NCBI GenBank assembly: GCA_040219515.1
Contig: JAVJSI010000014.1
Location: 124,001 to 188,000, forward strand
Reading direction: 5' to 3'
Length of the DNA stretch: 64,000 nucleotides
DNA from: Acidimicrobiales bacterium
GTDB taxonomy: Bacteria; Actinomycetota; Acidimicrobiia; Acidimicrobiales; Aldehydirespiratoraceae
Under the pieces are notes generated by a model that was not told where the DNA came from, made no database searches, and saw only the letters and a list, made by a program, of their open reading frames with translations. Shown here piece by piece: positions 5,543-9,890 of this stretch (positions are counted from its first letter, which is position 1; each line of letters starts with the position of its first letter). Position numbers and translations under genes: made by a program.

Positions 5543-6712
5543 TCAGCGGGCGGCGACCTGCGCGTCGACCAGCGCGCGACCGCGGCCCTCGCGGAAGTAC
5601 GGCAGCACCTCCTCGCCCAGGTGGTGCAGCGTCTCGATCTGCGCCGCCTGAGGGATGGTGCCCATCTGGCACAGGAAGAGGATCTCGTCGGCGCCGGCCT
5701 CGACGAGGCGGGTCACGTAGCCGATGCAGTCCTCCACGGTGCCGTAGCCGTGGTTCGCGTTGTGCAGTGCCATCGCCGGGTCCGACAGATCCAGCGTCAC
5801 CTTCTCCGAGCCGACGGACGCCTCGACGACTCCCGCGGGGCCGGATCCATCCGAGCCGAGCTCGGCATCCCACGAGTCGGGGTCCGGGAGCGGTGTCGCC
5901 CCCGCGCTGCTCCAGTGCCCGATCGACTCCATGAAGAAACGCTGGCCACGGATGCCGAGGCGTCGTGCCTCCTGGCCGTCGTCGAGAACCACGGTCGGAC
6001 AGAGCGCGGCGAGGTGCTCGGTCGGTCGGAGTCCGACCTGTTGCGCGAGGTCTCTGTTCCGGAACGCCTCTCGATAGACGGCATTCTTCTCGGCCACCTG
6101 TTCGGGACCGCCGAAGCCGAGCACCAGGGCACCGATGCCGCGACCGCCGGCGTCGGCCAACGTCGATGTCTGTGTGCACGCCTGGTACAGCGGTGGATGG
6201 GGGTCCTGTAGCGGCTTGGGATGGATCGGCCGCGGCGGCAGGTCGATGAATTCGCCGTGGTGCTCGACGATGTCCTCGACCCACAGGCGGGGGACGAGGC
6301 GCATCGCCTCGTCGATCATCGGGGGCAGGTCGGCCTTCGCGTAGCCGAAGGTTCCCGCCTCCTGCTCGGTGCCGCCCTTGCCGAAGCCCACATGGAGACG
6401 GCCGCCCGACAGGATGTCCAGCGTGGCGCAGCGTTCGGCCACCTTCACCGGATGGTTCATCTTCGGCGGGAGACAGATCACCCCGTGGCCGATGCCGATA
6501 CGGGTGGTGGCGCCGGCCAGGTAGGCGAGGAAGGTCTCGGGCGCCGACATGTGGGCGTACATGCTGAGGGCGGTGTGCTCGACGGCCCAGATCGTGTCGA
6601 AGCCCAGTTCCTCGGCCAGCAGCGCCTGTTCGAGTACCTCGGCAAACACCTGATGATCGCCCTCGCGGGTGGGGTTCGCGGTCTGGGCTTCGTAGATCAA
6701 CGAGAACTTCAA
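5543..6712 (-). CDS. LLM-class flavin-dependent oxidoreductase (luciferase-like)
   Basis: A 389-residue protein of the bacterial luciferase-like monooxygenase superfamily, using FMN or F420. Family features are the MKFSLIYEAQ start strand, HMSAPETFLAYLAGATTRI, the LSGGRLHVGFGKGG segment and a C-terminal barrel strand with ADEILFLCQMG. The start is a TTG at 6712, chosen because the sequence begins there with the first barrel strand and AGAGGA lies about 10 nt upstream; the open frame further upstream covers the divergent DsbA-like gene. The closest class cannot be assigned to a substrate. Its stop is 15 bp from the stop of the convergent fusion gene. Confidence 0.85.
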   Translation of the reverse strand: MKFSLIYEAQTANPTREGDHQVFAEVLEQALLAEELGFDTIWAVEHTALSMYAHMSAPETFLAYLAGATTRIGIGHGVICLPPKMNHPVKVAERCATLDILSGGRLHVGFGKGGTEQEAGTFGYAKADLPPMIDEAMRLVPRLWVEDIVEHHGEFIDLPPRPIHPKPLQDPHPPLYQACTQTSTLADAGGRGIGALVLGFGGPEQVAEKNAVYREAFRNRDLAQQVGLRPTEHLAALCPTVVLDDGQEARRLGIRGQRFFMESIGHWSSAGATPLPDPDSWDAELGSDGSGPAGVVEASVGSEKVTLDLSDPAMALHNANHGYGTVEDCIGYVTRLVEAGADEILFLCQMGTIPQAAQIETLHHLGEEVLPYFREGRGRALVDAQVAAR

Positions 6713-6877
6713 CGGGCGGAATCCTCTGGTTTCGTTGGCGCAAGGGTGTGGCCGGTCGGCACGCCTGTCAAGAACCAACGACCGAAGGCTGGAGCGCGGC
6801 GGGAAGTTCTGGGTGCTCGGCGGCGTTGCTCTGATCGTCCACCCTGCGTACCCCTCGGACGAAAGAGTGATCCCCAC

Positions 6878-7684
6878 ATGACCGACCCACTGACCATCCC
6901 GACCGAAGCACCCCCGTCGGAACCCGGCTACGACATCGAGTTCTTCTGGGATCCCGTATGCCCCTTCGCCTGGGTCACGTCTCGCTGGGTGGCGAAGGTC
7001 GCGGCGCAGAGCGACTTCTCGGTCGACTGGCGGTTCATCTCCCTGCGGCTGTTGAACAAGGACAAGGACTACGCCACCGAGTTCCCGCCGGAGTACGAGC
7101 AGGGTCACACGGCCGGCCTCCGGATGCTGCGAGTGGCCGCGGCCGTGCGGCACGAGCTCGGCCGTGAACCGTTGGATGCCCTCGTGACCGCCTACGGCGA
7201 GAGCTACTGGGACGCGCCAAAGGGCTCCGACGTCGCCGGCCGGCTCAGCACCACCGAACATGTCGTCGCCGTGCTCGAGGCAGCCGGACTGCCCTCCCGA
7301 TTCGCCGACGCACTCGACGACACGGCGTGGGACGCCATGCTCGACGCCGAGACCGAGCTCGCACTCAGCCGGACCGGTCGAGACGTCGGTACCCCGATCA
7401 TCACGTTCCAGCCCCCGGACGGTCTGTCGTTCTTCGGTCCGGTGATCTCCCGGGTGCCATCCGATGATGAGGCGGTGCCACTGTGGAACGCAGTGACCAC
7501 ACTGGCTGCCTTTCCCGGTTTCGCGGAGATGAAGCGGTCCCTGCGCGAGATGCCCCAGCTCAACATCCTCGGCGGCACCAGCGACGCGCCGAAGTCCGAG
7601 GACTGGACCGGCGGCCGGAGAGTCGGACACCTGGCCTCGGAGCGCGCGTCGGCCCGGTCAGCCGATGACGGTGCCGAAGAGTGA
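6878..7684 (+). CDS. DsbA-family thioredoxin-fold protein, mycothiol-dependent nitroreductase (Rv2466c) type
   Basis: A 268-residue thioredoxin-fold protein. The active-site segment FFWDPVCPFAWVTSRW (residues about 23-38) has one cysteine in a CPFA setting. That fits the Rv2466c-like family, where a single active-site Cys works with mycothiol, rather than the CxxC of classical DsbA. The long helical insertion and a conserved GTPIITF cis-proline segment follow. No signal peptide, so cytoplasmic. ATG 6878 has no strong SD. The family link suggests a mycothiol-using actinobacterium; this is inference. The 3' end overlaps the convergent VIT1-type gene by 27 bp. Confidence 0.75.
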   Translation: MTDPLTIPTEAPPSEPGYDIEFFWDPVCPFAWVTSRWVAKVAAQSDFSVDWRFISLRLLNKDKDYATEFPPEYEQGHTAGLRMLRVAAAVRHELGREPLDALVTAYGESYWDAPKGSDVAGRLSTTEHVVAVLEAAGLPSRFADALDDTAWDAMLDAETELALSRTGRDVGTPIITFQPPDGLSFFGPVISRVPSDDEAVPLWNAVTTLAAFPGFAEMKRSLREMPQLNILGGTSDAPKSEDWTGGRRVGHLASERASARSADDGAEE

Positions 7685-8422
7685 CCCGATGCCGTAGGTG
7701 ACGATCGAGGCCACGATCACGATGGCCAGCTGACGGAGCGCGCCCTGGCTGACCGGACGGTCGGCCGATCGGCTGACCCACCCGCCCACAACGAGGCTGG
7801 CCAGCGCGGTGCCGACCACCGAGATCGTGATCGCGGCGGTGCCGCTCGTGACGAACCACGGGGCGAGCGGGACGATGGCGCCTGCCGTGAACAGGCCGAA
7901 CGACGAGACGGCAGCGACGGCCGGCGAACCCACCTCGCCGGGGTCGAACCCGAAAACGGTGCGGGCGGTGAACTCGACGAAGCGGTCACCCTCCAACGGC
8001 AGTTCGGTGGCCACCCGCTGTGCTGTGTCGGTCGCCAGGCCGGTGTCCTCGAGCTTGGTGGTGAGCTCGGCGAGCAGGAGTCGCGGGTTGCGCTGGGCCA
8101 GCAGGTTGAGTTCGCCGGTGATGCCCTCGAACAACTCGACCTGACTTCGCACCGAGATCCACTCGCCGGCGGCCATCGAGAAGGCACCGGCGATCAGGCT
8201 GGCCAGCCCGGCGATGCGGACCTCGTCGGCCCCGGAACTCGCGCCGGCGACGGCCAGGATCAGGCAGACGTTGGTGACCAGCCCGTCGTTGACGCCCAGC
8301 ACGGCGGCCCGAGCTGCGCCGCGGGTGACGGTGGAGACCCGCTCCTGGAGTCGCGCCGCGTCGCCCCCGGCGTCGCGGGGCGAGGCGTCGGAGGTCGTCG
8401 TGTAGGGGACGGAGGCAGTCAC
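7658..8422 (-). CDS. VIT1/CCC1-family transporter (iron/manganese)
   Basis: A 254-residue membrane protein of the VIT1/CCC1 family, which moves Fe(II) or Mn(II) out of the cytoplasm. Seen: the family opening RGAARAAVLGVNDGLVTNV, AGAFSMAAGEWISVRSQ in helix 2, a cytosolic metal-binding loop rich in Glu (about residues 95-150), and three C-terminal hydrophobic helices. The GTG start at 8422 overlaps the stop of the upstream peroxiredoxin gene (GTGA), so the two are cotranscribed; a metal exporter coupled to a peroxide-removing enzyme makes sense as oxidative or metal stress defence. Confidence 0.85.
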   Translation of the reverse strand: MTASVPYTTTSDASPRDAGGDAARLQERVSTVTRGAARAAVLGVNDGLVTNVCLILAVAGASSGADEVRIAGLASLIAGAFSMAAGEWISVRSQVELFEGITGELNLLAQRNPRLLLAELTTKLEDTGLATDTAQRVATELPLEGDRFVEFTARTVFGFDPGEVGSPAVAAVSSFGLFTAGAIVPLAPWFVTSGTAAITISVVGTALASLVVGGWVSRSADRPVSQGALRQLAIVIVASIVTYGIGSLFGTVIG

Positions 8423-8886
8423 CGGTGGCCCTCGGCCTGCTCGACATCGGCGAGGACCTCGTCGGCGTGGTGCTCGACATCGGTGACGTCGTAGCCGCGG
8501 TGGATGAGGCCGGCGGGATCGATGAGGTAGCTGTGACGCCGGGGGAATCCGGCGAACTTGTCGCCGGGGCCACGGGCCACGTGATAGGCGCGGCCGACGG
8601 CACGTTCGGTGTCGCTCAGCAGTAGGAACGGAAAGCCCTGGGCTTCGGCGAACGCCCGGTTCTCGGCCGGGCTGTCGAAGGACGCGCCGAGGATCCTCAC
8701 CCCGAGCCGGTCGAAACGGTCGGCGCTGTCACGCAGCGCCTGTCCTTCCACCGTTCAACCGGGGGTTGCCGCCTTCGGATACCACCACAACAGCACCCAC
8801 GAACCGATGAGGTCGGCGAGTTCGACGATCTGCTCGTTCTGGTCCGGCAGCGCGAAGCCAGGGGCGCGTTGGCCGGTCGTCAGCAT
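8419..8886 (-). CDS. Selenocysteine-containing peroxiredoxin (in-frame UGA at the peroxidatic position)
   Basis: A 155-residue BCP/AhpC-TSA-type peroxiredoxin if the UGA at 8755-8757 is read as selenocysteine (residue 44). The first 43 codons from ATG 8886 encode a normal peroxiredoxin start: GQRAPGFALPDQNEQ, then SWVLLWWYPKAATPG. The UGA falls exactly where the family has its catalytic Cys (YPKxxTPGC), and the same frame continues with TVEGQALRDSADRF and the rest of the fold, including FPFLLLSDTE and RHSYLIDPAG. A 7-bp hairpin just downstream fits the bacterial SECIS model. Without recoding, only a 110-residue fragment starting at GTG 8751 would be called, lacking the active site. Cotranscribed with the VIT1-type transporter. 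The alternative is a nonsense mutation or sequencing error (TGC to TGA); intact flanking frame and hairpin argue against it. Confidence 0.82.
8722..8740 (-). promoter_or_regulatory. Putative bacterial SECIS element
   Basis: In the mRNA, GGCGCUG and CAGCGCC form a perfect 7-bp stem closing the loop CGUGA. The loop begins 21 nt after the UGA and has G as its second base. These values fit the published bacterial SECIS rules (16-37 nt from UGA to the apical loop, stem of at least 4 bp, loop of 3-14 nt, a G among its first two bases). It lies inside the coding region, as bacterial SECIS elements must. Confidence 0.7.
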
Positions 8887-8957
8887 GACCCGAGTCTGCC
8901 AGGCAGCCACTAGCCTGCGCTGTCGTTCGGGACTCGGCGTCGGAAAAGGGAGTTGTC

Positions 8958-9890
8958 ATGGCTGGTGGACTGGTCGGGCTGCTCGACGACGTCGCTGCGC
9001 TGGCCAAGCTCGCCGCCGCCTCGATCGACGACGTCGGCGCGGCCGCCGGTCGGGCGAGCATGAAGGCCGCCGGGGTGGTGGTCGACGACACGGCGGTCAC
9101 GCCTGCCTACGTGCGAGGCCTGGCTGCCGACCGCGAGCTCCCGATCATCCGCCGCATCGCCACAGGCTCGATCCGCAACAAGCTGCTCTTCATCCTCCCC
9201 GCTGCGCTCCTGTTGAGCGAGGTGGCGCCCACCCTCGTCGAGATCATCCTCATGGCCGGCGGCACATTCCTCTGTTTCGAGGGCGCCCACAAGATCCTCC
9301 ACGCCCGCAAGGGTGACGATCACGACCACGACGTCCCCGCGACGCTGAAGGGGCCCGAAGCCGAGCAGGCGACCATCAGTGGGGCCGTCCGCACCGACTT
9401 CATCCTGTCGGCGGAGATCATGGTGATCTCACTCAAGGAGGTCATCGACGAAGGGTTCTTCGCGCGTGCAGCGATCCTCGTGGTCGTGGCGATCTTCATC
9501 ACGGTGATCGTCTACGGCGTCGTGGCGCTCATCGTGAAGATGGACGACATCGGCCTCATGCTGGCGCAGCGCGAGTCCGAGGGCTCGCAGCGCATCGGCC
9601 GTGGACTCGTGTCGGGCATGCCGAAGCTGCTCACCGGTCTCTCCGTGGTGGGGACGGCGGCGATGCTGTGGGTGGGCGGTCACATTCTCCTCGTGGGTAC
9701 CGACGAGCTCGGATGGCACTGGCCCTACGAGCAGGTCCACCACGCCGAAGAGGCCGTCCACGACACCGGCGCCGTGAGCGGCGTCCTCGAGTGGCTCGTG
9801 AACACGGGGATCTCCGCCGTCGTCGGACTCGTGGTCGGCCTGATCGTCGCGTCGATCGTCGATCGCCTGCCCACGCGGACGGTCGTTTGA
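8958..9890 (+). CDS. DUF808 (YedI-like) integral membrane protein
   Basis: A 310-residue protein of the DUF808/YedI family, recognised by the opening MAGGLVGLLDDVAALAKLAA and by GRASMKAAGVVVDDTAVTP, both highly typical. Four to six hydrophobic segments are visible (about residues 75-110, 140-190, 225-250, 280-300). The function of the family is unknown. ATG 8958 is preceded by AAAAGGGAG, a good ribosome-binding site. It is divergent from the selenoprotein gene with a 71-bp gap. Confidence 0.88.
   Translation: MAGGLVGLLDDVAALAKLAAASIDDVGAAAGRASMKAAGVVVDDTAVTPAYVRGLAADRELPIIRRIATGSIRNKLLFILPAALLLSEVAPTLVEIILMAGGTFLCFEGAHKILHARKGDDHDHDVPATLKGPEAEQATISGAVRTDFILSAEIMVISLKEVIDEGFFARAAILVVVAIFITVIVYGVVALIVKMDDIGLMLAQRESEGSQRIGRGLVSGMPKLLTGLSVVGTAAMLWVGGHILLVGTDELGWHWPYEQVHHAEEAVHDTGAVSGVLEWLVNTGISAVVGLVVGLIVASIVDRLPTRTVV

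Follow-up and report, generated by a model that had tools for sequence, protein, structure and literature searches.

A probable selenocysteine peroxiredoxin without cysteine in an Acidimicrobiales genome

Introduction

Is a peroxiredoxin (Prx) gene with a stop codon at its active site broken, or is the stop read as selenocysteine (Sec)? The question is raised by a locus in a 64,000-nucleotide stretch of DNA from an Acidimicrobiales bacterium. The whole of this stretch is called the window here. Its assembly (G000) comprises 4.02 Mb in 19 contigs, and the window lies on contig C14. An initial annotation, made from the letters alone, had interpreted the interrupted frame as a probable selenoprotein gene. 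The analysis described below supports that interpretation. Judged from comparative sequence evidence, the apparently broken gene almost certainly yields a whole antioxidant enzyme, its 'stop' being read as selenocysteine at the active site.

Reading frame and encoded protein

The coding sequence occupies positions 8419–8886 of the minus strand, from an ATG at 8886–8884 to a TGA at 8421–8419. Direct reading confirms a peroxiredoxin that is complete except for one in-frame TGA at 8757–8755, the frame's sole defect. With this codon translated, the protein has 155 residues including Sec44. The UGA codon (8755–8757, minus strand) falls, as the initial annotation had stated, exactly at the peroxidatic position of the motif YPKxxTPG(U)T, here YPKAATPG-U-T. 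Family sequence had also been described on both sides of the codon in the same frame; the Pfam AhpC-TSA domain (PF00578) indeed runs across it, from residue 5 to residue 128 (E = 1.4e-30; 106.2 bits against a gathering score of 26). The best NCBIfam match is the equivalog NF006960 (Bcp/PrxQ thiol peroxidase), which reaches 107.9 bits and so lies below its cut-off of 140. The position of the start methionine is common to 11 of 12 aligned rows. In the twelfth (L022), which was trimmed to where the match begins, the codon just ahead likewise encodes Met. Besides Sec44 the protein contains no cysteine, and the i+5 position is Gln49.

Standard gene callers had been expected to report a 110-residue fragment without the active site, and the mechanical list of open reading frames bears this out: it gives the GTG-initiated frame 8419–8751 alone. 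One rival explanation takes the TGA as a real stop and this downstream frame as the functional product, for which a GTG at 8751, just past the TGA, would provide the start. The 43 codons upstream of the TGA are nevertheless in frame and conserved, and three Cys forms among the relatives described below are single uninterrupted frames. Moreover, to judge by the family, a product that lacks its peroxidatic residue could have no peroxiredoxin activity. This explanation is therefore highly improbable.

Selenocysteine machinery

The selenoprotein interpretation had been tied to the presence of selA, selB, selC (tRNA-Sec) and selD, and all four were found in the same assembly. The tRNA-Sec lies at position 131974 of contig C18 (64 bits against a gathering score of 47) and is typed by ARAGORN as tRNA-SeC(tca). 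The genes selA, selB and selD score 393, 276 and 362 bits, each above its cut-off; selD itself contains one in-frame TGA, read GAGUGCK. Within the GTDB family, selA is above cut-off in 49 of 51 genomes. Among 33 genomes chosen from the 80 related loci discussed in the next section, selA is matched in 30 and exceeds the cut-off in 28. It found no match in three of the 30 Sec-form genomes examined (G056, G064 and G071), the completeness of these assemblies not being given.

The presence of this machinery also bears on a rival in which a variant code, or near-cognate suppression, places some amino acid other than Sec at the TGA. No support for such reading was found, TGA also terminates the window's peroxiredoxin gene, and the site is the family's Cys position, where the sole other codon in the 80 loci is TGC; this rival is thus scarcely credible.

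In four more genes of the assembly an in-frame TGA falls on a redox or Sec site: C1:65684–66046, C3:7069–7404, C10:116444–116785 and C16:95480–96403 (L125, L127, L129 and L043). They comprise a second peroxiredoxin type, two UGC-type Prx-like proteins and SelD. Counting the window's gene, four of the eight AhpC-TSA matches in the assembly have a TGA. The second peroxiredoxin type (L125), with the sequence YPKAMTPGUTKESCHFRD, retains a Cys at i+5. The loop of its RNAfold hairpin begins about 10 nt past the UGA, closer than the published 16-nt minimum, and the hairpin perhaps represents another class of SECIS element. Relatives of this KAMTPGU type (L031–L033, L036, L038 and L039) have similar DNA at the hairpin region. 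A mycothiol-ligase-like match with an in-frame TGA (C4:94701) was rejected as a selenoprotein: its TGA is at match residue 3 and most likely marks a gene boundary.

Conservation of the UGA codon

A wider scan of named genomes found 122 relatives of the window's protein, of which the best 80 were kept. At the equivalent of codon 44 these best 80 of 122 have TGA in 77 and TGC in three, counts that are not independent, since the sequences are related, and that may favour this clade, the two search patterns having omitted the Sec position but having been derived from Sec rows; the remaining 42 may hold more Cys forms. Seventy-five of the TGA loci were identified by script, and two (L090 and L110), missed by the motif pattern, from their translations. 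L064 and L065 are from one bin and have identical proteins. The initial annotation had proposed an alignment of Cys-containing homologues over residue 44. Its outcome, TGA in one column with the TGC of the three Cys forms, is the pattern by which a bacterial selenoprotein is recognized. Gene calling that treats TGA as a stop loses the enzyme's active site both here and in these 77 of 80 relatives.

By label, 48 of the best 80 relatives are Acidimicrobi-, Ilumatobacter- or Microthrix, 31 are broader or other actinobacterial, and one (L111) is Proteobacteria. In this last metagenome-assembled genome the peroxiredoxin stands among actinobacterial sequences, and selA scores 498 bits, higher than in the other 32 genomes examined; contamination or transfer is possible. 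L046 and L053 have a second in-frame TGA within the counted stretch (two U each).

The GTDB family gives a second view, which overlaps the wider scan in at least five contigs (L078/G018, L089/G017, L100/G005, L121/G013 and L124/G010). A match at E <= 1e-15 occurs in 19 of its 51 genomes, the window's own included, with 23 matches in total. Thirteen are close, namely the window's gene and 12 orthologues of 48–56% identity, each with one TGA; in all 12 orthologues it falls at the YPxAST(P/A/S)G-U-T site. The ten distant matches (E 1e-15 to 1e-19) have a TGA in six cases and Cys without a stop in four.

A SECIS-like hairpin downstream of the UGA

A hairpin, GGCGCUG-CGUGA-CAGCGCC, occupies positions 8722–8740 of the minus strand (5' arm 8740–8734, loop 8733–8729, 3' arm 8728–8722), with 21 nt from the UGA to the loop. 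The bacterial SECIS model given in the accessible text of PMC13188914 specifies a loop of 3–9 nt, 4–16 bp, a G within the loop's first two positions, a spacing of 16–37 nt and a minimum free energy (MFE) of at most -7.5 kcal/mol. The window's hairpin agrees with every one of these rules: its loop has 5 nt and begins CG, its stem has 7 bp, its spacing is 21 nt, and the MFE is -26.7 kcal/mol, computed for the 60 nt starting 10 nt upstream of the UGA. For the 71-nt stretch of the window, the gain in folding over shuffled versions is only moderate (z = -2.31; 4 of 200 as good). Rfam returned no family match in window positions 8300–9000.

The hairpin is conserved among the relatives. In the 78 Sec genes (the 77 loci and the window's gene) all seven pairs form in 67, six in seven, five in three and four in one. 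At least six of the seven pairs are thus present in 74 of 78, against 20.0 expected from synonymous codon sampling, a null that is conservative, since it samples the codons of the same genes with the hairpin included. The three Cys genes form 3, 3 and 4 of the seven pairs. Loops of 5, 6 and 7 nt occur in 22, 15 and 41 of the Sec genes (22, 15 and 38 of 41 when identical 45-mers are taken once); each sequence was assigned to the best of three registers, a choice that favours the observed register but was equally available to the synonymous null. Paired cells in register number 146/154, 103/105 and 260/266 for the 5-, 6- and 7-nt classes, and sliding the arms by one or two leaves at most 81/154, 60/105 and 167/266. 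Of the seven pairs, 4, 2 and 3 show changes on both sides in register, and up to 2, 0 and 3 when slid, so that this measure does not discriminate for the 7-nt class (3 vs 3). The loop contains CGTGA in 78 of 78 Sec genes; among the Cys genes one has CGTGA and two have CGCGA. The loop codon for Arg52 is CGT in all 78, as against 46 of the 567 Arg codons at other places in these loci's Sec genes. The clade is useful for refining SECIS models in actinobacteria.

These results also bear on another rival to the selenoprotein interpretation, that of a pseudogene or a sequencing error in which a Cys codon was mutated to, or misread as, TGA. That the single in-frame stop is the frame's only defect would suit it. 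Against it, 77 of 80 loci from other assemblies share the TGA, as do all 12 close orthologues in the GTDB family, which makes a read error or pseudogene very unlikely; a conserved hairpin, moreover, follows the codon. Homologues broken without any SECIS-like hairpin had been named as evidence that would tell against a selenoprotein; what is found is the reverse, the TGA being kept with a conserved hairpin that is unformed in the three TGC loci. None of the testable grounds for doubt raised in the initial annotation went against its interpretation. Sequence comparison thus argues very strongly that the minus-strand frame 8886–8419 is a selenoprotein gene, with Sec at residue 44, and neither a pseudogene nor a read error.

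Cysteine forms and gene history

The three TGC forms (L059, L061 and L071) constitute one clade (support 100/99). It is nested in a fork whose 75 rows are otherwise all Sec forms, and four outgroup rows fall outside that fork; the support of the fork, 94/98, is just below the tool's mark for firm support. The genomes of all three forms have selA above cut-off. Since the TGC clade is nested and selA is kept in its genomes, a change from Sec to Cys without loss of selA, accompanied by decay of the hairpin, appears the likeliest reading of these sequences. For peroxiredoxins a 2006 survey lists, in its accessible text, five Cys-to-Sec events and no Sec-to-Cys event (PMC1794560). Sec and Cys forms, with and without a SECIS element, can thus be compared within one natural clade, which helps to ask why these bacteria keep costly selenocysteine.

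In the tree the window's peroxiredoxin groups with L045–L048 (up to 74% identity), two of which are labelled Ilumatobacter or Ilumatobacteraceae, while its identity to orthologues of its own GTDB family is 49–57% (11 of the 12 compared). In five of the six genus mates no match reaches E 1e-15; the sixth has only a more distant peroxiredoxin type. The gene is thus not general to the genus, and transfer or differential loss may account for this. Because of the tree grouping, contamination of the assembly (its own estimate is 4.96%) was considered as the source of the contig and rejected. The same contig encodes, at a distance of 2.2 kb, a 1235-residue helicase whose closest relatives are in three of the six genus mates (G028, 80% identity; G026, 86% and 71% in two pieces; G030, 74% over 199 residues), the other three having only distant matches. 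Its affinity indicates that the contig belongs to the genus.

Structure and proposed catalytic cycle

The AlphaFold model has a mean pLDDT of 86.7, with a moderate value of 73 for residues 41–50, near the active site. A helix spanning residues 44–53 begins at residue 44. The best Foldseek matches include Bcp1 and Bcp4 of Sulfolobus, BcpB and AhpE of M. tuberculosis, and PrxQ of Xanthomonas. By profile, the closest solved structures are of the Bcp/PrxQ type (5iph, E 5e-28); AhpE of M. tuberculosis is more remote (1xxu, E 6e-15).

The positions that hold a resolving Cys in PrxQ are largely empty of it in this group. In 81 rows, Cys is found at i+5 in one and at i+36 in three; the window's protein has neither and so does not qualify as an atypical 2-Cys enzyme. 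The other PrxQ resolving site is i+36, and the spacing of the Xanthomonas PrxQ mutants C48S and C84S among the Foldseek matches is consistent with this. A single catalytic residue in the same fold, as in 1-Cys enzymes of the AhpE type, is what the protein does possess. Proteins free of Cys are encoded by 45 of the 75 script-counted TGA loci.

A mechanism can be proposed from these features and from the family. (i) SelB and Sec-tRNA(Sec) would bind the hairpin past UGA44 and insert Sec, giving the 155-residue enzyme instead of a 43-residue stub. (ii) Sec44, with which the predicted active-site helix begins, would attack H2O2 or organic peroxides, reducing them and itself becoming Se-OH. (iii) The Se-OH would then be reduced by an outside thiol, of the type of mycothiol/mycoredoxin or of thioredoxin, much as AhpE and other 1-Cys peroxiredoxins are served. 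The last step is suggested by composition: since the window's protein has no cysteine, its Se-OH would have to be reduced by a thiol from outside. Candidate donor genes in the assembly score below their cut-offs (MshC-like, 410.7 vs 485.1 bits; mycoredoxin-like, 68.7 vs 89.5 bits). A cycle that runs on a single selenium, with the thiol supplied from outside, is a sound inference and probably correct.

The alternative that survives best accepts the Sec-peroxiredoxin but has the Se-OH resolved by a Cys of a dedicated partner protein or, in relatives, by the Cys of alignment column 63, and not by a free thiol or redoxin alone. Column 63 is indeed Cys in 23 of 81 rows, the three Cys forms among them; against this, there is no Cys in the window's protein or in 45 of the 75 script-counted TGA loci. 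Such resolution is rather unlikely, though it deserves more weight than the rivals to selenocysteine itself. The single-selenium cycle forms part of a broader reading for which the odds are about even: the Acidimicrobiia and their kin may have a separate PrxQ-fold subfamily of single-selenium peroxidases, many of them Cys-free and dependent on an outside thiol, with a SECIS loop that shifts among 5, 6 and 7 nt around a constant CGUGA, and one branch that has gone back to Cys, keeping selA and losing the hairpin. If this is true, selenium alone does the chemistry in the Cys-free members.

Genomic neighbourhood

A gene of the VIT1 family (Fe/Mn transporter family; Pfam PF01988, 161.9 bits) occupies positions 7658–8422 of the minus strand. 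Its GTG start overlaps the peroxiredoxin stop (GTGA), and the two genes are likely co-transcribed. In 14 of 80 loci, among them those of the three Cys forms, tblastn places the start of a VIT relative 6–107 bp past the peroxiredoxin match (77 of the 80 have at least 800 bp there). A link of the peroxiredoxin to iron or manganese handling therefore covers a minority of relatives. Given the overlap, the enzyme may protect the cell during metal handling, a more tentative suggestion than the catalytic cycle. Clustering of neighbours gave no gene adjoining more than 19 of 81 peroxiredoxin loci; it skipped stop-to-stop frames overlapping the peroxiredoxin by more than 150 bp and thus missed the sense VIT gene.

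On the plus strand, at 6221–7684, lies a frame with an Rv2466c-like (mycothiol-dependent, DsbA-type) domain and the motif CPFA; translation of this frame probably begins at the internal ATG at 6878. Rv2466c-like and DUF808 neighbours were not found in the flanks covered for the 80 loci at E 1e-10.

Relation to known systems

Sec-peroxiredoxins (COG1225 Bcp/PF00578, with TxxU) are an established family, to which the window's gene adds a member. They have appeared in metagenome surveys and reviews since 2005; the accessible portions of these report 43 genes in the Sargasso Sea (PMC1088965), 253 in the GOS data (PMC2398784) and 91 in 78 organisms (PMC5029168), and list the family in reviews (PMC9312934, PMC13188914). 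Symbiobacterium, then classed as an actinobacterium, was listed with a Sec-peroxiredoxin in 2006, according to the accessible text of PMC1794560. Like these, the window's protein has the same fold family, Sec at the peroxidatic TxxU (here TPGU) and a bacterial SECIS element just downstream. It differs in belonging to an actinobacterial clade, the one in which 48 of the best 80 loci are labelled Acidimicrobi-, Ilumatobacter- or Microthrix. The word 'Acidimicrobi' is absent from the accessible text of PMC13188914 and PMC5029168, and a literature search, thin on subscription journals, returned no paper on selenoproteins in Acidimicrobi- as judged by title and start of abstract. Marine members of the clade may already be included, without a name, in the data of the ocean surveys.

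The family PrxU (NCBIfam NF040737), presumably the Eubacterium acidaminophilum enzyme, is likewise a peroxiredoxin with Sec, but the window's protein scores 56.7 bits against its cut-off of 270 and so belongs to another subfamily. The E. acidaminophilum Sec-peroxiredoxin is the experimentally described one cited in the accessible parts of the reviews (PMC9312934, PMC13188914).

Two actinobacterial enzymes frame the proposed chemistry. M. tuberculosis AhpE (1-Cys; PDB 1xxu, 5id2) resembles the window's protein in fold (TMq 0.84) and in its single peroxidatic residue. That residue is Cys in AhpE and Sec here, and the profile match (E 6e-15) is weaker than that to Bcp/PrxQ (5e-28). AhpE is reduced by mycothiol/mycoredoxin 1, to go by the title of a reference in PMC5811025. 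Corynebacterium glutamicum PrxQ is, like the window's protein, of the PrxQ/Bcp type in an actinobacterium. It has Cys49 and the resolving Cys54, and without Cys54 its thioredoxin-linked activity is lost, as the accessible text of PMC5811025 states. Where Cys54 stands at i+5, the window's protein has Gln49. Since resolving Cys is absent at both i+5 and i+36, a 1-Cys-type cycle with an outside thiol is the likeliest. What is less ordinary, set against the known family, is that the window's protein lacks any Cys besides Sec, hence a resolving Cys, and that its relatives include one nested Cys clade in which the hairpin is lost.
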